Below, piece by piece: positions 7,554 to 21,893 of a DNA stretch of 48,037 nucleotides. Made by a program: the position numbers and the translations under genes. The notes under the pieces were generated by a model. That model saw only the letters and a list, made by a program, of their open reading frames with translations, was not told where the DNA came from and did not search any database. Source of the stretch: Propionibacteriales bacterium (lineage in GTDB: Bacteria > Actinomycetota > Actinomycetes > Propionibacteriales > Nocardioidaceae); NCBI GenBank assembly GCA_009377795.1, contig WHTJ01000025.1, forward strand, positions 1 through 48,037, in the 5' to 3' direction. The number at the start of each line of letters is the position of its first letter. The stretch's first letter is position 1.

Positions 7554-8246
7554 TCAGATGCTGTCGCCAAGTATGTTGGCCCGGACGCGTAGTAGGTGGG
7601 CGCGCATGGCCTCGTGGGCCGCCGCGCCGTCACGGTCCAGCAAGGCCTCTGCGATGGTTCGGTGGTCTGTGATGTAGTCGAGCCGCCGCTGGGCGGTGAA
7701 GCTTCGACGCTTGAGCTGACCCCACTGTGGCTGGTGCCGGGCGGCATTGGTCATGTCGCAGATCTGCACCAGCAGGCTGTTGTGCGTGGCGAGCGCGAGG
7801 GATCGGTGGAAGGCGGCATCCCATCGCTCGAACGACTCGTAGCTGGGGTCGATCTCGGAGCCGGCCAAACAGCGCTGTATCTCGGCGATGTCGTCGCGGC
7901 GCGCCGCGGTGACCACGAGCGGCATGCTGGACGGCTCCACCAGCAGCCGGACGGCCATGATTTCGGCGGGGCTGCTGCCGCCGCCATTGGCCAGATCTTG
8001 CTCGTCCGGCTTGGCCGGCGTGAGGAACGTGCCTCGCCCGACGTGCCGGATCACCCGGCCTTGGGCCTCCAGGGTGGCCAGTGATCGTCGTACGACCGTG
8101 CGGCTCAGACCGGTGCGTTCGACCCACTCCCGCTCGGTGGGCAACTTGCTGCCGGGAGCCAACCCGAGCCGTGCGACCTCTCGCTCGATCAACGCCAGCA
8201 TGTGGACCTCCTCGCCCACGGCCGGAGCCGGCGATGGCTGACTCAC
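7554..8246 (-). CDS. GntR-family (FadR/FCD subgroup) transcriptional regulator
   Basis: The chosen start is GTG 8246 (VSQPSPAPAVGEEVHM), five bases behind GCGGAGG, giving 230 residues. A longer frame to 8273 has no better site. Residues ~15-80 form the GntR winged helix (GLAPGSKLPTEREWVERTGL, then SRTVVRRSLATLEAQGRVIR). An all-helical FCD ligand-binding domain follows, with metal and acid-binding-type residues (MAVRLLVEP, DAAFHRSLALATHN, HRTIAEALLDRD). FCD regulators bind organic acids and usually repress a divergent catabolic operon. The gene is divergent from the hydrolase-hydroxylase operon across 150 bases carrying repeated CCAAT elements. It is thus the likely regulator of that operon and of itself. 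Confidence 0.92.
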   Translation of the reverse strand: MSQPSPAPAVGEEVHMLALIEREVARLGLAPGSKLPTEREWVERTGLSRTVVRRSLATLEAQGRVIRHVGRGTFLTPAKPDEQDLANGGGSSPAEIMAVRLLVEPSSMPLVVTAARRDDIAEIQRCLAGSEIDPSYESFERWDAAFHRSLALATHNSLLVQICDMTNAARHQPQWGQLKRRSFTAQRRLDYITDHRTIAEALLDRDGAAAHEAMRAHLLRVRANILGDSI

Positions 8247-8259
8247 GCGAACCTCCGCT

Positions 8260-8277
8260 ACCAATCGCACCAATTGC
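8260..8277. repeat. Tandem 9-base direct repeat in the gntR leader
   Basis: Two adjacent copies, ACCAATCGC and ACCAATTGC, differ at one base. They lie 14-31 bases upstream of the gntR start. Together with the AACCAAT copies at 8326 and 8346 and ATTGGTT at 8359, they put at least five CCAAT-type elements in the divergent intergenic region. A regulator-binding role, possibly autoregulation of gntR, is inferred. Confidence 0.55.
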
Positions 8278-8336
8278 GGGAGGGTTCCAGACCCTTGCTC
8301 CGAAGGATCTTACCCCACTACGCTCAACCAATACGG

Positions 8337-8374
8337 CCCATTCCGAACCAATATTACGATTGGTTGGGAATGGG
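8337..8374. promoter_or_regulatory. 38-base dyad, probable operator of the catabolic operon
   Basis: The left arm is CCCATTCCGAACCAAT, the spacer is ATTACG, and the right arm is ATTGGTTGGGAATGGG. The arms match at 15 of 16 positions. An extra AACCAAT lies at 8326-8332, exactly 20 bases before the left-arm copy, which is about two helical turns. The dyad ends 22 bases before the ATG of the hydrolase gene, so it should overlap the transcription start and the possible -10 TATTAC at 8352. GntR/FadR proteins bind palindromes of TGGT...ACCA type, so this is the natural operator for the divergent regulator. The binding itself is inferred. Confidence 0.75.
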
Positions 8375-8396
8375 TTCAGCCGAGCAGAGAGGCACC

Positions 8397-9275
8397 ATGA
8401 GGTTCGTTCGCTACCGGCACGGGGATCGCAAGTTCGCTGGCGTGCTGGAGGGTGAGCATGTACAGCGCCTGGACACCACCGGTTTGGGCGGTACGGCGGA
8501 CGATCTGCTGGCCGTCATCCGCGTCTGGGAGGACAGCGGTCCCTCCGTGGTACGAACCATCGAGCCCACACTGCAGCTCGAGGACGTTCGACTGCTGGCT
8601 CCCATCGCCGATCCGGGCCGTAACATCTTCTGCGTCGGCAAGAACTACCGCGAACACGCCGACGAGTTCGCCGGCAGTGGTTTCGACGTCACCAGCCGCG
8701 GGGAATCCCTCCCGTCCCATCCGGTCGTCTTCACCAAGCCCGCCAGCAGCATCATCGGCCCCGGGGACCGCATCGACCCTCATCCCGGCCTCACCTCGGC
8801 ACTTGACTACGAGGCAGAGATCGCCGTGATCATCGGGCACGGTGGCCGAGGCATCTCCACCGACGCCGCCTGGCGGCACGTATGGGGATACACGCTCCTC
8901 AATGACGTCACCGCCCGAGACCTGCAGCAGCAGCACCGACAGTGGTTCATCGGCAAGTCGCTGGACACGTTCTGTCCCATGGGGCCGTGGGCGGTCTCCG
9001 CCGACGAGGTCGACGGCACGGATCTGACCATCGAGAGTCACGTCAATGGTGAACTCCGCCAACGGGCGAACACCCGCGATCTCATCTTCGACATCCCCAC
9101 GCTGATTTCCACGCTGTCGGCGGGCATCACCTTGCAGGCCGGGGACATTGTCGCGACAGGTACGCCAGCGGGTGTCGGAATCGGATACGACCCATCCCGA
9201 TTTCTCGTGCCGGGTGACGTGGTCTCGGTGAGCGCGACAGGGCTCGGATCCCTGGTCAACGAGGTGGGTGCATAG
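8397..9275 (+). CDS. Fumarylacetoacetate hydrolase-family protein
   Basis: The 292-residue protein starts at ATG 8397 (MRFVRYRHGDRKFAGVLEGE) behind GAGAGG. Upstream in-frame codons run through the operator region and are unlikely to be used. The FAH catalytic core is clear. It has NIFCVGKNYREHADEF, the metal ligands in DYEAEIAVIIG, VWGYTLLNDVTARDLQ, the lysine in FIGKSLDTFCPMGPW, and IVATGTPAGVGIGYDP. This family hydrolyses, decarboxylates or isomerises acylpyruvate-type and ring-cleavage products. It is the first gene of an operon with a molybdenum hydroxylase, an importer and a class II aldolase, so it probably acts on a late intermediate of the imported compound. The exact reaction cannot be told from sequence. 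Confidence 0.9.
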   Translation: MRFVRYRHGDRKFAGVLEGEHVQRLDTTGLGGTADDLLAVIRVWEDSGPSVVRTIEPTLQLEDVRLLAPIADPGRNIFCVGKNYREHADEFAGSGFDVTSRGESLPSHPVVFTKPASSIIGPGDRIDPHPGLTSALDYEAEIAVIIGHGGRGISTDAAWRHVWGYTLLNDVTARDLQQQHRQWFIGKSLDTFCPMGPWAVSADEVDGTDLTIESHVNGELRQRANTRDLIFDIPTLISTLSAGITLQAGDIVATGTPAGVGIGYDPSRFLVPGDVVSVSATGLGSLVNEVGA

Positions 9276-9325
9276 GTGGAGTTCCGCGACCTAGGGAGGC
9301 TCAGCGACCGAGTGGAGACGGCGGC

Positions 9326-9970
9326 ATGATCATCGAACAGAGCTTCACCGTGAGGGCGTCGCGAGACGACACGGCGGCGTTCCTCCTCGACATCAACCGG
9401 GTGTCCGCCTGCGTTCCCGGTTTCGAGGAGGTCGAGGAGGTCGAGCCCGGGCGGTACCGCGCCGTACTCGGCGTTCGGCTTGGTCCCATCCACGCCGCCT
9501 TCCAGGGGACGATGGCGCTGGACGACAGCGAGGCCCCGCAACGGCTCACGGCCACCGGGGACGGTCGTGACCGGGCGACGGGCAGCGTGGCGAAGGTGTC
9601 GTTCGCCGCCGACCTCACCGAGGAGCAGGCCGGGGAGACGACGGTCACCGCGGTCGTCGACGTCGCGCTGCGCGGGCGGCTGGCGCAGTTCGGCACGGGC
9701 GTCATGCGAGCCGCCGCCGGCGAGATGGTCGAGCAGTTCGCCACCTGCGCCAACGCCAGTCTCGCCGCCGTGCCAGGTACCGCGACCCCGCACGAAGCCG
9801 CCGGTGCCGAGATGCCCACCCTCGGAGCTGCCCCGACATCCACGCCGGCCACACCGGGCATCGCCCGGATCCTCCTCCGCAGCATCTGGAAGGCCCTCCG
9901 TGCGGCTGTGCGCAACCTGCTCTCCCGTCGAGGTCCGAGGGAGTCCACGACCACGGAGCGTCGCCCATGA
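9326..9970 (+). CDS. CoxG-like SRPBCC protein
   Basis: The 214-residue protein has an N-terminal SRPBCC domain of the CoxG type (residues 1-145). Characteristic stretches are DINRVSACVPGFEEVEEVEP and VSFAADLTEEQAGETTVTAV. A Thr/Ala/Pro-rich linker follows, then a basic amphipathic C-terminal helix (IARILLRSIWKALRAAVRNL). In Oligotropha, CoxG helps anchor CO dehydrogenase to the membrane. The same role is plausible here, with the C-terminal helix as the membrane contact. It begins 50 bases after the hydrolase stop, and its stop overlaps the start of the FAD-subunit gene (ATGA), so translation is probably coupled. Confidence 0.85.
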   Translation: MIIEQSFTVRASRDDTAAFLLDINRVSACVPGFEEVEEVEPGRYRAVLGVRLGPIHAAFQGTMALDDSEAPQRLTATGDGRDRATGSVAKVSFAADLTEEQAGETTVTAVVDVALRGRLAQFGTGVMRAAAGEMVEQFATCANASLAAVPGTATPHEAAGAEMPTLGAAPTSTPATPGIARILLRSIWKALRAAVRNLLSRRGPRESTTTERRP

Positions 9971-10851
9971 GCCCGACCGCGTTCCACGAGCCGGCCGATC
10001 TGGCCGACGCGTGTGCCCTGCTGGCGGCCAATCCCTGGGGTGCCAAGGCGATCTCGGGCGGCACCGCAATCGTCCTCATGCTGCGCAACGGACTCATCGC
10101 ACCGGAGTCATTCATCAGCCTGGCGCGCATCGGCGGACTCCGCGGGATCGCCGTGGAGGACGGTGTGCTGCGGATCGGTGCCGGGACCACGCTCGCCGAG
10201 GTGGCGGCGTCCCCGGCAATCCGGGAACACGCCCCCAGCGTCGCCAGCGCGTGCGAGCTCGTCGGCAACCCCCGAGTCCGCAACGTCGCCACGATCGGTG
10301 GCAACCTCGCGGAGGCCGATTACGCGTCCGACCCACCCGCCACGCTCGCCTCGGTCGGGGCGCGGTGCGCGGTCACCGGAACGGCGGGCCGGCGGACCGT
10401 CGAGGTGATCGACCTGATCACCGGCTTCTACGAGACGGTTCTCGAGCCCGATGAGCTGATCACGCACGTCGAGATCCCGCTTCCCGCCGGTCCGCGCGGT
10501 GCCGTGTACCTCAAGTACCGCACCCGCTCCTCCGAGGACCGTGCCTGCGTGGGCGTGGCCGCGCGCGTCGACTTCAGGGACGGAGCCGTCGGCGATCTCG
10601 ACGTCGTGGTGGCGGCGGTCGCCTCGACGCTGCAGCGTGTGCCGGACCCGTTGGCGGCCGCCCGTGGACGCCGGCTGGAACCGCCGGTGATTCGCGAGGT
10701 GGCCCGCGGCTACGCCGATGCCATCGACCCGATGGACGACGCCCGCGGATCCGCCGGCTACCGCCGAAAGATGATCGAGGTCTTCGTCCGACGCGCACTC
10801 GAGCAGGTCGCGGGCCAGCAGCGGGGGAGTGGAGGGGGAGCTCGTGGCTGA
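9967..10851 (+). CDS. Molybdenum hydroxylase FAD-binding (medium) subunit
   Basis: This 294-residue protein matches CoxM/XdhB-type FAD subunits in length. It has the FAD-binding motifs AKAISGGTAIVLMLRNGL (normally AGGxSLxP-like) and RNVATIGGNLAEADYASDPP, plus the CO-dehydrogenase flavoprotein C-terminal domain from about residue 170 (GPRGAVYLKYRTRSSEDRAC). It passes electrons from the Fe-S subunit to an acceptor. It starts inside the coxG-like stop codon and overlaps the next gene by 8 bases, so the subunits are coupled translationally. The order medium-large-small fits this enzyme class. The first FAD motif is slightly divergent but recognisable. Confidence 0.92.
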   Translation: MSPTAFHEPADLADACALLAANPWGAKAISGGTAIVLMLRNGLIAPESFISLARIGGLRGIAVEDGVLRIGAGTTLAEVAASPAIREHAPSVASACELVGNPRVRNVATIGGNLAEADYASDPPATLASVGARCAVTGTAGRRTVEVIDLITGFYETVLEPDELITHVEIPLPAGPRGAVYLKYRTRSSEDRACVGVAARVDFRDGAVGDLDVVVAAVASTLQRVPDPLAAARGRRLEPPVIREVARGYADAIDPMDDARGSAGYRRKMIEVFVRRALEQVAGQQRGSGGGARG

Positions 10852-13114
10852 CGGGATCGGCCGTGACTACCGAATGCCGGACGCCGACCAACGGTTACTC
10901 GGCACCCTGCCGTTCGTGCTCGACCGGCGTGCAGCCGGGATGGTTCACGCCAAGGTGGTGCGAAGCCTCCAGCCACACGCCACCATCCGCGGCATCGACG
11001 CCTCCGAGGCGCTCGCGATGCCGGGAGTGCTCGCGGTGCTGACCGGTCGGCAGATCGCCAACGACCCCGGCATCGAACCGTACTTCGGTGCAATGCGCGT
11101 GGATCAGCCGGTGCTGGCGATCGACAAGGCCCGGTACGCCGGCGACCCGGTGGCGATCGTGATCGCAGAGAAGCCCCAGCAGGCAGCCGCTGCCGCGCCC
11201 TTCGTCGACGTGGACTACGAGGACCTGCCCCACGTCGTCGACGCCGACGATGCCGCCACGCCGGGTGCTCCTGTCATCCATGAAGACTGGCCCGACAACA
11301 ACTGCGGCTCCTGGCGTTCTCGGCTCGGCGACTGCGACGCAGCGTTGCAGGGGGCGGACCACGTCTTCACCGGCGTGTACTACTCCCCGCCGGCCAGCCA
11401 CGTACCCATGGAGCCGTACATCTGCCTCGCGGACTGGACCGGCAACGAGCTCGAGGTGTGGACGTCCACGCAGGCGCCGCACGCTGTGCGGCAGGGGCTG
11501 GAGAAGATGTTCTCCCTGCCGGAGGACCGCGTCCGGGTGCGGACCCTGAACCTCGGCGGCGCATACGGCGCCAAGGGCCAGGTCAAGATCGAGCCGATGG
11601 CGGCCTGTGCCGCGCGTGCCGTGGGACGGCCCGTTCGCATGGAGCTGTCCCGCGACGAGGTGTTCCTGACCATCGGCAAGCACGCCGCGCGTGTGGAGCT
11701 GACGACCGGGGTCAACCGCGACGGCCGCTTCGTCGCCAGGCGCGCGAAGGTGAACTACAACGCGGGCGCCTACGCCGTGACCAGCGTTGGTGCGTCTGGA
11801 CAGGGTCTCACTCGGGCCAATGGACCGTACGCGATCCCGAACATCGCCGTCGACAGCGTCGCCACGTACACGAACACCGTGCCGAGCGGGCCCTTCCGAG
11901 GTGCCATGACCTCGCAGCTCGCCTTCGCCCACGAGCAGCAGATCGACGAGATCGCCGACGCCTTAGGTACGGATCCCGTGGAACTGCGGCGGCTCAACCT
12001 GCTGCGCGACGGAGATGTCTATGCGACGGGTGAGGCTCTGCACGACCTGCACTACGACGAGCTCCTGGACGACCTCGTCGACGCGATCGGGTGGGGGACG
12101 CCATCCGAGCCGGCGTCGCCGGGCAAGGTACGCGGCAAGGGTCTCGCGATCATGCTCAAGAACACCCTGACCCCCTCGCGGTCGGAGGCCCGGCTCCGTG
12201 CCTGCCCCGACGGGACGGTGCACGTCTTCTCCAGCAGCGTCGAGATGGGCCAGGGAGCGCACGCGACGATTCTCCAGCTCGTCTCGGAGTACCTGGGCAT
12301 CTCGATCGACCGGCTCGTGATGGGCTTCCCCGACACGCGTCACACACCGTTCGACACGACCACCAGCTCGAGTCGGACGACGTCATCGATGGGGGAGGCA
12401 GTCCGTAAGGCCGCGGCGGACCTGATGCTGCAGCTCCGCTCGCTCGCCGCCAAGCGGTGGCAGGCATCGGAGGACGACGTCGAGATCAGTGCCGGTTCGG
12501 TGCGCCTGCGGCGCGGAGACGAGCCACGCGAACAGCCCTGGGAGGAGCTCATTGAGCAGGCCGAGGTGCCTGACGTTACGGGGCACGGCGTCATTGAGAG
12601 CGACTTCGGGTTGGCGCTCATGGACGACCCGCACGACGTCAAAGGGCCGGTGAGCGTCCACTGGCACCAGGGCGGTGCCGCGGCGGAGGTGGAGGTGGAC
12701 CTGGAGACCGGCCGTCTCGAGGTGCTGCGAATGCACGCGAACTGCTTCGCCGGCAAGGTCGTCAACCCGCTACGGGTACGCCAGCAGAACCAGGGCTGCG
12801 TCATTTTCGGGCTCGGACCCACGCTGTTCGAGGAGCTGGACTACCAGGACGGCACGCTGACGAACCCGAACCTCTCCGACTACATGATCCCGTCGATCCT
12901 CGACGTCCCGGCCACGATCACCAGCACCGCGGTCGAGTCCGACGACCCTGGGGCCGAGCTCCACGGTGTGGGCGAGATGGCCCTGCCGGCGGTGTCGCCG
13001 GCGGTCGCCAACGCGCTGTTCGCGGCGACCGGCGTCAGATTGCACGAGCTGCCTCTGACCCCCGAGCGGATCCTGCACGCCCTGGAGCAGAACGGCCGCA
13101 ACCAGCAGGAGTGA
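10844..13114 (+). CDS. Molybdenum hydroxylase large (Mo-pterin) subunit, xanthine dehydrogenase family
   Basis: The 756-residue protein starts at GTG 10844 behind GGAGGGGGA. An in-frame GTG at 10829 is less well placed. It has the aldehyde-oxidase N-terminal a/b hammerhead domain (residues ~20-130), then the Mo-pterin-binding domain. The loop at residue ~350 reads PSGPFRGAMTSQ, and the catalytic base is E711 in HGVGEMALPAVSPAVANALF. The form I CO dehydrogenase signature AYxCSFR, which carries the Cys that holds copper, is absent, so CO is not the substrate. The protein probably hydroxylates a carbon next to a ring nitrogen, or an aldehyde. It acts with the FAD and 2Fe-2S subunits encoded on either side. 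No cofactor-sulfuration genes are seen in the window. Confidence 0.92.
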   Translation: MADGIGRDYRMPDADQRLLGTLPFVLDRRAAGMVHAKVVRSLQPHATIRGIDASEALAMPGVLAVLTGRQIANDPGIEPYFGAMRVDQPVLAIDKARYAGDPVAIVIAEKPQQAAAAAPFVDVDYEDLPHVVDADDAATPGAPVIHEDWPDNNCGSWRSRLGDCDAALQGADHVFTGVYYSPPASHVPMEPYICLADWTGNELEVWTSTQAPHAVRQGLEKMFSLPEDRVRVRTLNLGGAYGAKGQVKIEPMAACAARAVGRPVRMELSRDEVFLTIGKHAARVELTTGVNRDGRFVARRAKVNYNAGAYAVTSVGASGQGLTRANGPYAIPNIAVDSVATYTNTVPSGPFRGAMTSQLAFAHEQQIDEIADALGTDPVELRRLNLLRDGDVYATGEALHDLHYDELLDDLVDAIGWGTPSEPASPGKVRGKGLAIMLKNTLTPSRSEARLRACPDGTVHVFSSSVEMGQGAHATILQLVSEYLGISIDRLVMGFPDTRHTPFDTTTSSSRTTSSMGEAVRKAAADLMLQLRSLAAKRWQASEDDVEISAGSVRLRRGDEPREQPWEELIEQAEVPDVTGHGVIESDFGLALMDDPHDVKGPVSVHWHQGGAAAEVEVDLETGRLEVLRMHANCFAGKVVNPLRVRQQNQGCVIFGLGPTLFEELDYQDGTLTNPNLSDYMIPSILDVPATITSTAVESDDPGAELHGVGEMALPAVSPAVANALFAATGVRLHELPLTPERILHALEQNGRNQQE

Positions 13115-13123
13115 GGACGCACG

Positions 13124-13645
13124 ATGACCGACCAGACCGCCCCGAGCGGGCAGGTTGACGTCAGGCTCATCGTGAACGGCGATGCCCACACGGTCGCCGT
13201 CGACGTCGACGAGACGCTCCTCGACACACTGCGGGACCGCTTCGATGTGACCAGTGCCCGGGGGACCTGCGGTATCGGGCTGTGCGGGGCGTGCACCGTG
13301 CTGGTCGACAGCAAGGTCGTCAGCTCCTGCATCATGCTCACCGCCCAGGCGGCCGGGCACGAGATCACCACCGCCGAGAGCCTCGGCGGTGGTGACGGGA
13401 GGCTGGCCCGCGTCCAGGAGGCGTTCGTCCAGCGGGGCGCGTACCAGTGCTCCTTCTGCATCCCGGCCATGGCGCTGACCGTCCACGCAGCGCTCGCGGA
13501 CGACGAGGCGGGACGCAGCCGCGACAGCGTGCGCGAGTACCTGGCAGGAAACCTCTGCCGCTGTGGCACCTATCCAGAGATCCTCGAGGCCGTCACCGAC
13601 CTGGTCGATGAGGCAGGGGACCGAGCGACCGGGAGCGATGCATGA
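13124..13645 (+). CDS. Molybdenum hydroxylase 2Fe-2S (small) subunit
   Basis: The 173-residue protein carries two 2Fe-2S clusters. The plant-ferredoxin-like N-terminal cluster has GTCGIGLCGACTVLVD with a further cysteine at VVSSCIML. The C-terminal four-helix domain has QCSFCIPAMALTVHAAL and GNLCRCGTYPEI. Most relatives read QCGFCTPGM, so the Gly-to-Ser and TPG-to-IPA changes are small departures near the cluster. It relays electrons from molybdenum to FAD. It follows the large-subunit gene by nine bases, and its stop overlaps the ATPase start, so the enzyme and importer belong to one transcript. Confidence 0.93.
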   Translation: MTDQTAPSGQVDVRLIVNGDAHTVAVDVDETLLDTLRDRFDVTSARGTCGIGLCGACTVLVDSKVVSSCIMLTAQAAGHEITTAESLGGGDGRLARVQEAFVQRGAYQCSFCIPAMALTVHAALADDEAGRSRDSVREYLAGNLCRCGTYPEILEAVTDLVDEAGDRATGSDA

Positions 13646-14475
13646 CCGGCACTGCGGCTGTTGTCCAGCCCAAGATCGCACTGAGGGACATCCGGAAGAC
13701 CTTCCGCTGGACCGCGAAGGGCAAGGAGCACGTCGTGCCTGCGCTGGGGGGCGTCGACTTCGACATCAGGCCGAACGAGTTCCTGACGGTCATCGGCCCC
13801 AGCGGCTGCGGCAAGACCACGCTGCTGCGCATCCTCGCCAACCTGGCCACGCCGGACACCGGTTCGGTGCTGATCGACGGGCAGGAGGTCACCAAGCCGG
13901 GCCCGGAGCGCGCCATGGTCTTCCAGGCGTTCGGCCTGTTCCCGTGGAAGACCGTGCTGGACAACGTGACGTTTCCCCTGACGCTTCGCAAGATGCCGGA
14001 GAAGGAGGCCAAGGACCGCGCGCGCGAGCAGCTCAAGCGCGTGGGTCTGGAGCACTTCGAATCGTCCCACCCGCACCAGCTCTCGGGTGGCATGCAGCAG
14101 CGGGTCGGTCTCGCGCGGGCGCTGGTGACCGAGCCGGACATCCTCCTCATGGACGAGCCCTTCGGCGCGATCGACGCGCAGACGCGCGAGTTCATGCAGG
14201 AGGAGTTGATGAAGATCTGGGCGGACACGAACAAGACCGTCGTCTTCATCACGCACGATCTGGACGAGGCCGTCCTGCTCTCTGACCGAATTCTCGTACT
14301 CTCCCGGGGCCCGGGCACTGTCCGCCGGGTCGTCGACGTCGACCTGCCCCGTCCGCGGTGGGAGTACGACGTCCGCTCGCACGCGACCTTCGCCACGGTG
14401 CGCCACGACATCTGGCAGCTGTTGCGCGGCGACCTGCAGGCCCAGACGGAGGAGGAGGCTCGGGGTGGCCACTGA
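13642..14475 (+). CDS. ABC importer ATP-binding protein (nitrate/sulfonate/taurine type)
   Basis: The 277-residue ATPase has Walker A GPSGCGKTT (residues 52-60), the Q-loop FQAFGLFPWKT, signature LSGGMQQRVGLARALV, Walker B DILLMDEPFGAID and the H-loop FITHDLDEAVLLSDRI. The fold and the DEAVLLSDRI segment place it with SsuB/TauB/NrtD proteins that energise import of small anions. It starts by ATGA overlap with the 2Fe-2S gene and ends overlapping the permease. It is the only ATPase in the operon, and probably serves both permeases. Confidence 0.94.
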   Translation: MTGTAAVVQPKIALRDIRKTFRWTAKGKEHVVPALGGVDFDIRPNEFLTVIGPSGCGKTTLLRILANLATPDTGSVLIDGQEVTKPGPERAMVFQAFGLFPWKTVLDNVTFPLTLRKMPEKEAKDRAREQLKRVGLEHFESSHPHQLSGGMQQRVGLARALVTEPDILLMDEPFGAIDAQTREFMQEELMKIWADTNKTVVFITHDLDEAVLLSDRILVLSRGPGTVRRVVDVDLPRPRWEYDVRSHATFATVRHDIWQLLRGDLQAQTEEEARGGH

Positions 14476-15250
14476 CGTAGCCGTCGGCCGCGCGCGCAGG
14501 TTCAAGACCATCCCTGCCGGCCCGCACTTGCTGGCCGCGTCGGTCTTCTTCGGTTCCTGGGAGCTGTACGGCCACCTGGGCAACCCCCTCCTGCTACCAC
14601 CGGTGTCGGCGGTGGTAGCAGGTCTCTTCGAGATCACCTTCGGCGGACCATTGCTCCCGGCCCTCTTCAGCAGCTTGCAGTTACTGTTCGTGGGCTTCGG
14701 TACGGCGTTGCTCGTGGGAACGTTGCTCGGGATCCTCATCGGCCGGTACCAGCTGGCCAACCGGGTGTTCGGACCCTTCCTCAACGCGATGTACGCGACA
14801 CCCGACATCGCACTTCTGCCTCTGATCCTGCTGTGGTTCGGCTTCGGGATGACGGGGCGGGTCGTTGTCGTGTTCCTGGCGGCGTTCTTCCCCATCATGA
14901 TCAACACCTATGCCGGTGTCCGCGATGCACCTCGAGAACTCCTCGAGGTCGCCTCGTCGTTCGGTGTCGACACGGAGGTCGGCCGGCTCCGCCGCGTCAT
15001 CCTTCCGGCGGCTCTGCCGCTCATCATGGCCGGTTATCGCCTCGGCATCGGTCGCGCCGTCGTCGGCATGGCAGTCGCTGAGGTTTATCTACGCCTGGGC
15101 GGCTTGGGCACGCTCATCGTGCAGTACGGAGCAGCGTTCCGCACCGATCTGCTGATCGCCTCCATCCTGCCCCTACCCCTGCTCGGCGTTGGCCTCACCA
15201 AGGTCTTCGAGCGGATTGAGAACCGTTTCCAGTACTGGCGCAAGCTTTGA
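14465..15250 (+). CDS. ABC importer permease (first of two)
   Basis: This 261-residue permease starts at GTG 14465, overlapping the ATPase gene by 11 bases. About six hydrophobic helices are visible. The cytoplasmic EAA loop reads EVASSFGVDTEVGRLRRVIL followed by PAALPLIMAGYRLGIGRAVV. This is the SsuC/TauC-type BPD_transp_1 pattern that docks onto the ATPase. It is a paralogue of the permease at 16439, but the two differ throughout. Together they suggest a heterodimeric membrane channel, which is less common than the homodimer of well-studied SsuC systems. Confidence 0.92.
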   Translation: MATDVAVGRARRFKTIPAGPHLLAASVFFGSWELYGHLGNPLLLPPVSAVVAGLFEITFGGPLLPALFSSLQLLFVGFGTALLVGTLLGILIGRYQLANRVFGPFLNAMYATPDIALLPLILLWFGFGMTGRVVVVFLAAFFPIMINTYAGVRDAPRELLEVASSFGVDTEVGRLRRVILPAALPLIMAGYRLGIGRAVVGMAVAEVYLRLGGLGTLIVQYGAAFRTDLLIASILPLPLLGVGLTKVFERIENRFQYWRKL

Positions 15251-15277
15251 CCACCCCTTCCCACCTAGGAGCTACTC

Positions 15278-16393
15278 GTGAACAGTCCACCTTTAATCCG
15301 CAAGAGCGCGGCACTCGTCACGGCGGCACTCATATTGGCCGCCTGCGGTGGCAATACTGACTCCGGCGACGCACCGGAACCGGCCGGAGGGGCTCCCGCT
15401 GGGGGCGACGACACCGAACAACTCGAGGAGGGTGCTGTCCCGCCGACCGGCGTCGAGGGTGGTCCCGAGTTCGACCTGTCCGGCACTGAGGTCGTGGCGA
15501 CGACGTCGCCCCCCGGCGCCATCAACATGGGGACCTTCTTCGTATATAAGCGTCTCGAGGAGTGGGGTGCGGACATCGAGACGGTCATTGTGACGACGAC
15601 GAGCGGTGTCCAGACGATCATGGCCGGTCGGGCGGACATCGCGTCGCAGGGGTCGGACGAGGTCGTCCTCGGGGCGGCCGAGGGCGCTGACATGGTGGCG
15701 GTCGGAGCACCGTCCACGGCGATGGACTACGTGCTCGTGGCGACCGAGGACATCGAGAGCGTCGAGGCGCTCGAGGGCAAGACGATCGGCATGTCGGGAC
15801 CATCGGGCTTCGACGCGCTGCTGTCGCGGTTCTCCCTGGAGGACGTCGGGCTCTCCGGCAATGACGTGAACTTCGTCCAGATCGGCGGAAGCCCGGACCG
15901 CGCGGCCGCGCTGCTGTCCGGCCAGGTGGACGCGGCCACGGTCTTCCTGGAGGACTGGGAGGAGCTGAGCCGCAAGACCGACGAGCTTCGCCTCGTCCAG
16001 TACATGGCCGAGATCGTTCCGGAATTCCCTGCCACTGCGTACTTCGGCCAGGCGAGCTTCTGGGAGGAGAACCCGGACCTCCCGCTGGCCCTCGCCTGCG
16101 CCAACCTCCAGGCCAATGCCTGGATCAACTCCAGCGAGGACGAGTACGTCGAGTACGTGCTTCAGGTGGTCCCTGGAGCCACGGAGGAGGCCGCTCGGGC
16201 CATCTACCAGGGTGGTCAGGAGGTCAACATGTGGCCGACCAACCCGGACGAGGTGTTCTCCGTGGACGGCCTCGGTGGTCTCGTGGACGCGATGGTTGAG
16301 ACCGGCGATATCAGTGAGCCGGTGGACCCGGAGCAGATCGCCGACGTGAGCTACCTGCAAGAGGCGGCCGACATGGGTTGTAACGAGCTCTGA
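15278..16393 (+). CDS. ABC importer substrate-binding lipoprotein (SsuA/NMT1 type)
   Basis: The 371-residue protein starts at GTG 15278, behind CTAGGAGCTACTC. The signal peptide ends in the lipobox LILAACGG, so the protein should be lipid-anchored at the cytoplasmic membrane. A Gly/Asp/Pro-rich linker to about residue 65 is followed by a two-lobe periplasmic-type binding fold. It has features of the NMT1/SsuA group (VQTIMAGRADIASQGSDEVV, VEALEGKTIGMSGPSGFDAL and GQVDAATVFLEDW). This group binds nitrate, sulfonates, pyrimidine precursors or aromatic acids. It sits between the two permease genes. The ligand probably equals the substrate of the molybdenum hydroxylase, but it is unknown. Confidence 0.92.
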   Translation: MNSPPLIRKSAALVTAALILAACGGNTDSGDAPEPAGGAPAGGDDTEQLEEGAVPPTGVEGGPEFDLSGTEVVATTSPPGAINMGTFFVYKRLEEWGADIETVIVTTTSGVQTIMAGRADIASQGSDEVVLGAAEGADMVAVGAPSTAMDYVLVATEDIESVEALEGKTIGMSGPSGFDALLSRFSLEDVGLSGNDVNFVQIGGSPDRAAALLSGQVDAATVFLEDWEELSRKTDELRLVQYMAEIVPEFPATAYFGQASFWEENPDLPLALACANLQANAWINSSEDEYVEYVLQVVPGATEEAARAIYQGGQEVNMWPTNPDEVFSVDGLGGLVDAMVETGDISEPVDPEQIADVSYLQEAADMGCNEL

Positions 16394-16438
16394 CGCAGCC
16401 CCTGTGACCCGGACCCCGACTGGAGAGAGTGAGCTCGG

Positions 16439-17263
16439 ATGGCGATGACGACGCAGCGCACGGAGAAAGCGGCTACGTCTGCAGGGACGCCCGCGGGTCG
16501 CCGGGTCAAGGCCCTGCTGGTCACATCGCTGCCGCTGATCGCGCTCGTCGTTCTCCTCGTCGTGTGGGAGGTAGCGGGCAGGATGGCGAACCCCATCCTG
16601 TTCGCCCCTCCCTCGCGCGTGGCCGACGCCTTCGTGGAGCTGACGGCGTCCGGCCGGCTCCCGCAGGCGCTGTTCGTCTCGCTGCAGTCCCTGGCGGCGG
16701 GCTTCCTGCTCGCCTTGGTGACCGGTCTCGCGATCGGTGTCCTGCTGGGGCTCCACCCGACTCTGGCCCGGGGAGTGGAGCCGTACATCGACGCGATCTA
16801 TGCCACGCCGCGCGTGGTGATGATCCCGCTGGTCATTCTGTGGTTCGGTGTTGGGTTCTGGGGTCGCCTGTTCATCATCTGGATCGGCGGCGTCGTGCCG
16901 ATCATCCTGAACACCGCCATCGGTGTGCGGAACGTGCGACAGGATCTGGTCGAGGTGGCTGAGTCGTTCGGCGCCAGTGAGCGCCAGCTCGTCCGCCACG
17001 TCATACTTCCTGGTGCGGTGCCGTACGTGATGGCAGGCCTGCGCATCGCCGCCGGCCGGTTGCTCCTCGGCGTCGTGATCGCCGAGATCTTCCTGGACCT
17101 GACCGGCGTCGGTGGGATCATCCAGACGGAGTCGGCGTACTTCCGAACCGACAACATGCTCGTCGGCGTCCTCGTCTTCGCGGCCCTGGGTGTCGTTATG
17201 ATGTGGGCATTCGACCTCCTGGAGAAGGCGTTCTCCGGCTGGAAGGAGCGTGGCGCCGAGTGA
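16439..17263 (+). CDS. ABC importer permease (second of two)
   Basis: The 274-residue protein starts at ATG 16439, behind GGAGAGAGTGAG. It has the same six-helix layout as the first permease and the EAA loop EVAESFGASERQLVRHVIL followed by PGAVPYVMAGLRIAAGRLL. Its N-terminus is longer and basic (MAMTTQRTEKAATSAGTPAG). It lies directly after the binding-protein gene, and its stop overlaps the GTG of the aldolase gene. Alignment by eye of the EAA loops shows clear kinship with the permease at 14465, but they are not a recent duplication. Confidence 0.92.
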   Translation: MAMTTQRTEKAATSAGTPAGRRVKALLVTSLPLIALVVLLVVWEVAGRMANPILFAPPSRVADAFVELTASGRLPQALFVSLQSLAAGFLLALVTGLAIGVLLGLHPTLARGVEPYIDAIYATPRVVMIPLVILWFGVGFWGRLFIIWIGGVVPIILNTAIGVRNVRQDLVEVAESFGASERQLVRHVILPGAVPYVMAGLRIAAGRLLLGVVIAEIFLDLTGVGGIIQTESAYFRTDNMLVGVLVFAALGVVMMWAFDLLEKAFSGWKERGAE

Positions 17264-17961
17264 CAAGTGCCGAGGACCTGCGGCGCGAGGTCGCGCTCGG
17301 ATGCCGCGTTCTGGACCGCGAAGGGCAGGGTGACTTCATCTGGGGCCACGTCAGCGCTCGGGATCCGCAGGGGCGTGGTGCATGGCTGAAGGGGGCCGGC
17401 CTCGGCTTCGACGAGATCACCTCGGACGACGTCATCCTGGTGGACCGCGACGGTGGCCTTCTCGAGGGGGAGGGGCGTGTTCACTTCGAGTACCCGATCC
17501 ACACGGAGGTCCTGGCGGCCAGGCCGGACGTCGGCGCGGTCGTGCACACTCACGCCGAGGCCGCCGTGGCGTTCGCTGCGACAGGCATGCCGCTACGGCC
17601 CATCGGACACGAGGGCACGCTATTCACACCACCGGACATCGCTCGCTACACCAAGACGTCGGATCTCATCATGAACGCCGAGCTCGGTGCCTCGGTGGCG
17701 CAGGCACTCGACGCTCGCAACGCGGTGCTCCTCGTCAACCACGGCATCGTCACCGTTGGCGCGGACGTTGCGACGGCTGTGATGACCGCGGTGATACTCG
17801 AGCGAGCCTGCCGGTCGCAGCTCCTGGCCTCCGCTTCGGGCCTGCCGCTGACGTGGACCCACGACGACGAGGCGCTGCGGAAACGCGAGGGGGTCTACGG
17901 CGAGCACCAGATCGGCGCTGCGTGGGTCTACCTCCGCCGACGCCTGGACCCCGACTCCTAG
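17260..17961 (+). CDS. Class II aldolase/adducin-family protein
   Basis: The start is GTG 17260, overlapping the permease stop, giving 233 residues (VTSAEDLRREVALGCRVLDR). The AraD/FucA zinc site is seen in AVVHTHAEAAVAFAATGMPL, with a third His in LLVNHGIVTVG. The E in HFEYPIHTE may contribute acid-base catalysis. Members are sugar-phosphate aldolases or epimerases, but some are decarboxylases of hydroxy-aromatic or pyridine carboxylates. Given a molybdenum hydroxylase and an anion importer in the same operon, a decarboxylase or retro-aldol step in catabolism is the better guess. No sugar kinase is nearby. It is the last gene of the island. Confidence 0.9.
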   Translation: MTSAEDLRREVALGCRVLDREGQGDFIWGHVSARDPQGRGAWLKGAGLGFDEITSDDVILVDRDGGLLEGEGRVHFEYPIHTEVLAARPDVGAVVHTHAEAAVAFAATGMPLRPIGHEGTLFTPPDIARYTKTSDLIMNAELGASVAQALDARNAVLLVNHGIVTVGADVATAVMTAVILERACRSQLLASASGLPLTWTHDDEALRKREGVYGEHQIGAAWVYLRRRLDPDS

Positions 17962-21558: not shown

Positions 21559-21568
21559 TGCCGTGTGG

Positions 21569-21639
21569 AGCGGGTGACGGGAATCGAACCCGCACCATCA
21601 GCTTGGAAGGCTGAGGCTCTGCCGTTGAGCTACACCCGC
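21569..21639 (-). tRNA. tRNA-Gly (anticodon TCC)
   Basis: On the minus strand a 71-base cloverleaf runs from GCGGGTGTAGCTCAACGGC to CACCCGC plus the discriminator T. The acceptor stem is perfect (GCGGGTG/CACCCGC), the anticodon loop reads CTTCCAA giving TCC, and the T-arm holds GGTTCGATTCC. No CCA is encoded. Confidence 0.96.
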
Positions 21640-21739
21640 GTGGCCGGGCGCCGTTTCGACGCTAGCGTGGGCCGCCGCCTATGATGACATGGCCAGGGCC
21701 GGATGGCCGATTCTGGTCCGCTAGACTCACCCGGCGCCG

Positions 21740-21812
21740 CGGGGCGTAGCGTAGTGGCTAGCGCGCCTGCTTTGGGAGCAGGAGATCGCAGGTTCGAGTC
21801 CTGTCGCCCCGA
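21740..21812 (+). tRNA. tRNA-Pro (anticodon TGG)
   Basis: A 73-base cloverleaf begins CGGGGCGTAGCGTAGTGGC and ends CGCCCCG plus the discriminator A. The acceptor stem CGGGGCG/CGCCCCG is perfect. The anticodon stem-loop CTGCTTTGGGAGCAG gives TGG, and the T-arm holds GGTTCGAGTCC. It precedes tig, as in many Actinomycetota. Confidence 0.96.
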
Positions 21813-21893
21813 CCGACGACCCGATCAGGTCGAGCATCCGGGCGATGCCACGCGTCGACAACCAGCCATGTGACCGAGGAGAGAGTCATCACC

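Follow-up and report, generated by a model that had tools for sequence, protein, structure and literature searches.

Described pathways and the operon

In the picolinate (pic), nicotinate (nic), and quinoline pathways, a molybdenum (Mo) hydroxylase hydroxylates the nitrogen-containing ring, which is later decarboxylated or opened. The operon described here, at positions 7554–17961 of contig WHTJ01000025.1 (C148) of a Propionibacteriales bacterium, differs from these pathways in its decarboxylase, dioxygenase, and transporter complement and has no ordered match among them. The whole 48,037-nt contig, which belongs to a 4.58-Mb, 97%-complete assembly of 182 contigs, was analyzed and is called the window in the following. 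Judged by its sequence, the operon is probably (roughly 0.55) a GntR-controlled unit through which a (hetero)aromatic carboxylate is used, with an N-heteroaromatic acid as the likeliest substrate. It would then belong to an already known kind, aromatic-acid operons that combine GntR control with Mo hydroxylation, but with a gene combination that we found in no described pathway.

The closest described cluster that we found is the lumichrome/riboflavin (lum) cluster of Nocardioides simplex (PMC12746152). With ingredients comparable to those predicted for the window, this actinobacterial cluster encodes a xanthine-oxidase-type hydroxylase that acts on an N-heterocycle (LumJ), a heterocyclic-acid decarboxylase, a retro-aldolase, a fumarylacetoacetate hydrolase-family (FAH) protein to which no role is assigned (LumV), and four proteins for transport. 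Unlike in the window, LumJ is one 140-kDa chain, the decarboxylase LumK/L depends on thiamine diphosphate, and the 25 genes (PMC12746152) include a P450, a Rieske protein, a catechol dioxygenase, and hydrolases, all absent from the window operon. As a single-chain LumJ, LumK/L, a Rieske protein, and a catechol dioxygenase are not encoded at 7554–17961, membership in the lum pathway was rejected.

The phthalate and 2,3-dihydroxybenzoate pathways share with the window a class II aldolase-fold protein, which in those pathways (PhtC, DhbB) decarboxylates aromatic acids. Ring hydroxylation in these pathways is carried out by Rieske dioxygenases and not by Mo enzymes, and the identity between the window protein and a PhtC is 31%. 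A solved class II aldolase-fold enzyme that acts on a pyridine carboxylate has the same fold (PDB match 7.5e-21) but is not the closest relative, and we know of no Mo hydroxylase partner for it. Also comparable are Frankia clusters (L028, L031, L122–L125), of which we know no description: a class II aldolase gene is followed by the Mo FAD, large, and Fe-S subunit genes, with FAH near. Unlike the window, they contain two large-subunit paralogues, a Rieske protein, VOC proteins, and an isochorismatase-type hydrolase, at about 40–43% identity, and no NMT1 importer was found in them.

A preliminary description, made from the bare sequence, had been unable to name a pathway for the gene set, in agreement with our literature search, which found no described pathway containing this combination. 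None of the operon proteins reached the curated equivalog cut-off of a specific named enzyme, and the substrates can therefore not be read from family membership. Searches of the open reading frames against Pfam and curated families did place all eleven genes at the positions and in the families first given for them, namely ten co-directed genes opposite a divergent regulator:

7554–8273, minus strand: FCD-type GntR regulator, divergent (Pfam FCD 6e-20, GntR 4e-13)
8337–8352 and 8359–8374, no strand: candidate operator, the two arms of a 16-bp inverted repeat (arms 94% complementary)
8397–9275, plus strand: FAH-family protein (Pfam 4.5e-72, 242.6 bits; best PDB chain 8sky, 4.9e-73)
9326–9970, plus strand: CoxG-like SRPBCC protein, putatively for Mo-enzyme maturation (Pfam COXG 2.6e-19)
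9967–10851, plus strand: Mo hydroxylase FAD subunit (FAD_binding_5, CO_deh_flav_C)
10829–13114, plus strand: Mo hydroxylase large (molybdopterin) subunit, MoL (MoCoBD_1/2, Ald_Xan_dh_C; GVGE; tree)
13124–13645, plus strand: Mo hydroxylase 2x[2Fe-2S] subunit (Fer2_2, Fer2; eight Cys)
13642–14475, plus strand: ABC importer ATPase of the nitrate/taurine type (ABC_tran 4.3e-36; ntrCD- and Sao-like)
14465–15250, plus strand: ABC permease 1 (BPD_transp_1 5e-22)
15278–16393, plus strand: NMT1/THI5-type substrate-binding lipoprotein, SBP (NMT1 2.4e-21; lipobox LAAC)
16439–17263, plus strand: ABC permease 2 (BPD_transp_1 5e-27)
17260–17961, plus strand: class II aldolase-fold enzyme with GTG start, putative decarboxylase (Aldolase_II 4e-42)

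As the family assignments rest on full-length matches to curated domains, chance is not a concern. The listed FAH reading frame opens further upstream, and its likely start is the ATG at 8397. Five of the nine operon junctions overlap (by 4, 23, 4, 11, and 4 bp), so that the genes are, narrowly, "mostly overlapping" as had been stated, and the remaining gaps are 50, 9, 27, and 45 bp. With these overlaps and no gap above 50 bp, a single transcript is the natural reading for the ten genes. That no ring-cleaving dioxygenase is encoded in the operon was likewise borne out; two LigB-type genes lie on other contigs of the same genome, which also contains seven further FAH genes.

The Mo hydroxylase, the aldolase-fold protein, and the importer

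The three-subunit enzyme is predicted to be a xanthine oxidase-family Mo hydroxylase. It combines Mo-cofactor, FAD, and 2x[2Fe-2S] subunits, with GVGE and its catalytic Glu at MoL residues 713–716 and all eight cluster Cys kept in the Fe-S subunit. The cut-offs for xanthine dehydrogenase (XDH), 4-hydroxybenzoyl-CoA reductase (4-HBCR), CO dehydrogenase (CODH), glyceraldehyde dehydrogenase, and PaoC were not reached, the best score being 414.6 of 994.6 bits (4-HBCR alpha), and when 84,980 species were scanned with MoL, the identity of the large subunits found did not exceed 50%. In a maximum-likelihood tree, the window MoL and that of an Acidothermales genome (L011; 50% identity) were sisters (100/100) and fell inside a 38-row clade (100/100) of Actinomycetota and Chloroflexota, with the paralogues encoded in the window's own genome placed separately. 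To our knowledge, this clade has no characterised member.

Next to the clade's MoL genes there are repeatedly genes for C–C cleaving enzymes from unrelated families. Directly downstream in L011 are proteins of the 4,5-dihydroxyphthalate-decarboxylase type (best PDB 9jp7, 1.5e-61), and UbiD, UbiX, and an NMT1-type importer lie nearby in a further clade member (L032). Among the Chloroflexota loci, seven have an ACMSD-type Amidohydro_2 protein and ten a hydrolase closest to dihydroxypseudooxynicotine (DHPON) hydrolase 2jbw. The Frankia loci have the class II aldolase directly upstream, and in the vicinity FAH, an isochorismatase-type hydrolase, and a Rieske protein closest to carbazole/2-oxoquinoline oxygenases; the Thermomicrobium member has FAH inside its operon. 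PuuE-like proteins, an asparaginase, and a CoA-ligase-like gene occur at the Arthrobacter, Pseudonocardia, Nocardioides, and other loci. From these neighbourhoods we infer that the clade theme is hydroxylation followed by C–C or C–N cleavage, often on N-rings.

Some further observations concern Mo hydroxylases outside the window. The same assembly encodes about a dozen further large subunits (22 matched stretches; L001–L010), which is many for 4.6 Mb, and most of them form clades separate from the window MoL. A conserved cluster (L016, L020–L022, L024, L029, L079) joins a Mo hydroxylase to two PuuE-like, asparaginase, CoA-ligase-like, and quinone-oxidoreductase genes. Near such a PuuE/asparaginase-type cluster on Arthrobacter crystallopoietes pLDW-10 lies a tricarballylate dehydrogenase gene, which presumably fits an isonicotinate/citrazinate-type route; a literature search on isonicotinate/citrazinate genes gave nothing usable. 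Four of the Frankia loci (L123, L125, L028, L031) encode two MoL, a class II aldolase, a Rieske protein, two VOC proteins, an isochorismatase-type hydrolase, FAH, and a 427-aa protein without Pfam or NCBIfam match, and this cluster looks like an undescribed N-heterocycle pathway.

In the class II aldolase-fold protein, the Glu and His triad of the superfamily (E77, H96, H98, H161) are invariant in an alignment of 13 sequences, and the catalytic Glu is equivalent to Glu73 of FucA. Twelve other sampled genomes encode relatives with 46–63% identity, and one more relative (59%) is encoded in the window's own genome. Six genomes with a relative have the order HyuA-HyuB-LigB-hydrolase-hydrolase-aldolase, in most cases together with acetaldehyde dehydrogenase and 4-hydroxy-2-oxovalerate (HOA) aldolase, and four loci have a 3-hydroxybenzoate-6-hydroxylase-like (3HB6H) gene, two of them also gentisate dioxygenase and three also FAH. 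On a Microbacterium plasmid (L076), a 54.6% relative is part of a Rieske dioxygenase cluster and stands beside a true PhtC (385 bits); as both coexist there, the window-type protein is not simply PhtC. One and the same ring-cleavage product is reported to be decarboxylated by the class II aldolase DhbB or, in a different strain, by the ACMSD-type OpaD (PMC6362003), and this interchange matches the swapping of decarboxylase types in the Mo clade.

With its two hydrolases being alpha/beta hydrolases, the HyuA-HyuB-LigB-aldolase arrangement (L107, L109–L112, L115) is a conserved actinobacterial cluster to which we assigned no pathway name. On Sinorhizobium, Caballeronia, and Microbacterium plasmids (L142, L143, L076), the window-type aldolase adjoins a 4,5-dihydroxyphthalate-decarboxylase-type gene, as if the two enzymes acted in sequence.

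The importer is of the NMT1/SsuA type, with an NMT1-type SBP, BPD permeases, and the ATPase encoded adjacently, and the lipobox predicts that the SBP is a lipoprotein. It did not reach the cut-offs for sulfonate, taurine, or nitrate importers (SsuA_fam 77.3 of 163.5, ntrCD 248.9 of 291.8, taurine ATPase 239.8 of 357 bits). SBP relatives were found at 78, 43, and 41% identity. When 148 relatives, 395 genomes of the class, and 392 genomes of the order were searched with the SBP, only two (G009 and G407) were positive; the importer is thus rare and absent from all other sampled genomes of the order. In G009, a 75% importer relative is accompanied by FAH, GntR, an asparaginase, and a second NMT1 importer. 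In G407, a 45% relative lies with PhtC-like, Amidohydro_2, and Pht5-like (dihydroxyphthalate-decarboxylase-like) genes and without an adjacent Mo enzyme. Both settings would fit an aromatic acid, possibly a nitrogen-containing one, as cargo.

The FAH protein has the FAA_hydrolase domain with the DYE...E / ND metal motif of the superfamily, at 137 and 169. The cut-offs for HpaG, rhamnonate hydrolase, and fumarylacetoacetase were not reached (165.9 of 500 and 153.3 of 276.4 bits).

Proposed function and alternative readings

The substrate, the reaction order, and the enzyme activities are deduced here from gene content and sequence. The SBP and the two-permease ABC importer would bring the acid in, and the Mo hydroxylase, with CoxG helping its assembly, would add a water-derived hydroxyl group, typically on the carbon beside the ring nitrogen. 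The aldolase-fold enzyme would strip off the carboxyl group using a metal (His96/98/161) and Glu77, either from the hydroxylated ring (compare HMPDdc and PhtC) or from a ring-opened product (compare DhbB), and ring opening would be carried out by an enzyme encoded elsewhere. FAH would act late and cleave or decarboxylate the resulting acylpyruvate-type or oxaloacetate-type acid, and the FCD regulator would repress at an ACCAAT-N6-ATTGGT palindrome until the substrate or an intermediate binds. The core of this scheme, namely that an organic anion is imported, hydroxylated, and then decarboxylated or split, had already been proposed in the preliminary description and is backed by our neighbourhood surveys of the Mo subunit, aldolase, and importer relatives. 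More tentatively, and at less than even odds, the operon may belong to an undescribed N-heteroaromatic carboxylate route in which the clade enzyme first hydroxylates the substrate and one of various non-homologous enzymes (class II aldolase, Pht5 type, UbiD, ACMSD type, DHPON-hydrolase type) then removes a carboxyl group or side chain.

Several points weigh against a heteroaromatic carboxylate operon. The search for the ordered gene set that had been suggested earlier found partial relatives only and no complete copy elsewhere, so that the grouping is seen in one genome plus these partial relatives. The importer of G009, which probably has the same cargo, is on a contig without Mo hydroxylase or aldolase. 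Our confidence is moderate, given that no complete second copy was found in which co-inheritance could be followed and that importer and Mo enzyme are apart in G009. Moreover, the Mo relatives are 42–50% identical and thus too distant for substrate transfer, the operon lacks the amidase/imidase that an N-ring pathway needs, and the three surveys have no formal background rate. The aldolase scored 99.9 of the 200 bits required by the PhtC equivalog NF053537, and its reaction may differ from that of PhtC.

An aliphatic or sugar-acid pathway, with a glyceraldehyde-type aldehyde oxidoreductase, FAH as a 2,4-diketo-3-deoxy-acid hydrolase/dehydratase, and a true aldolase acting on a sugar-acid derivative, could draw on the best families of the FAD subunit (glyceraldehyde dehydrogenase beta subunit) and of FAH (2,4-didehydro-3-deoxy-L-rhamnonate hydrolase), on the highest scores of GntR with the UxuR and ExuR models, and on the intact catalytic Glu and His triad of the aldolase. 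We nevertheless regard it as unlikely, since these family scores are all far under the curated cut-offs, no sugar kinase or dehydratase is present, and the close aldolase relatives and the Mo clade adjoin aromatic or heterocycle enzymes. Rather improbable, too, is a composite operon in which the importer, Mo hydroxylase, and aldolase serve one compound while GntR-FAH is a separate older module, for example for oxaloacetate tautomerase/decarboxylase housekeeping, and contributes no more than its promoter. Such a module is suggested by Cupriavidus, where the GntR(FCD)–FAH pair (39% and 53% identity) occurs by itself, with an alpha/beta hydrolase and an amidohydrolase as neighbours, by Corynebacterium, where FAH (57%) and GntR are also adjacent, and by the best PDB match of FAH, 8sky, which is YisK, an enzyme with oxaloacetate activity; however, FAH also occurs near the aldolase relatives and near the Mo relatives in Thermomicrobium and Frankia. 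A purine/xanthine dehydrogenase or CO dehydrogenase operon is extremely unlikely. The subunit families broadly fit the XDH and Cox models and CoxG is present, but the xdh, puc, and CODH equivalog cut-offs were not reached (407 of 780 and 298 of 950 bits), purine-pathway genes are absent, and the loop reads PSGPFRGAM and not the CoxL active-site Cys motif.

It was in principle also conceivable that the aldolase-fold protein supplies the oxygenase step that the operon seems to lack, as a non-heme Fe(II) oxygenase for oxidative decarboxylation or for ring or C–N cleavage, since among solved chains 8ix6, 8iqa, and 8il8 are nearest in sequence, with NovR (of the NovR/CloR type) and TqaM also among the top matches. 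The three chains are treated as pyruvic oxime dioxygenases (PODs), which require an N-terminal helix and have conserved Gln53 and Phe103 (PMC11841055). The window protein has His30 and Ile80 at these two positions, has, like its close relatives, little sequence before the domain and thus no such helix, and keeps the lyase-type Glu77, where the POD alignment has Ala. POD identity was therefore rejected, and an oxygenase in general appears very unlikely.

If the heteroaromatic carboxylate reading is true, it would give the first functional frame for a Mo-hydroxylase clade without a characterised member among those placed, and the rule "hydroxylate, then cleave a C–C bond" would allow the neighbouring genes to predict function for dozens of loci. 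The reading would also widen the view of actinobacterial recycling of pyridine-type acids from spore, plant, pesticide, and drug residues. The operon would offer a small and complete test set of regulator, operator, hydroxylase, decarboxylase, and binding protein, the last of which might be enough to identify the substrate.

Regulator, candidate operator, and genomic setting

Between GntR and FAH, the inverted repeat reads CCCATTCCGAACCAAT-N6-ATTGGTTGGGAATGGG. Its core, AACCAAT-N6-ATTGGTT, occurs once in the window and in 0 of 100 shuffles, and additional ACCAAT half-sites are at 8260, 8269, and 8327. The GntR–FAH gap of Cupriavidus pMOL30 (L145, 5835–6003), where the 39% identical FCD regulator flanks the 53% identical FAH, contains the half-site three times. 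The palindrome at 8337–8374 is the presumed operator. A scan for sigma-70 promoters gave no match, as expected for a G+C-rich genome, and the one terminator-like match of the promoter/terminator scan overlaps the palindrome. The FCD GntR–FAH pair with its ACCAAT half-site is common to the window (8271–8396) and pMOL30, which suggests that it is an old regulatory module.

The metabolic scheme of the preliminary description largely stands. Its term "island" is unproven in the genetic sense: the G+C content and codon usage of 7554–17961 match those of the flanks, and no integrase or transposase was seen for the region. From 21566–21814 onward, 3.6 kb past the operon, follow tRNA-Gly, tRNA-Pro, and conserved chromosomal genes, so that the region is chromosomal. 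By inspection, these conserved genes are tig, clpP, clpX, mreB, and rodA.

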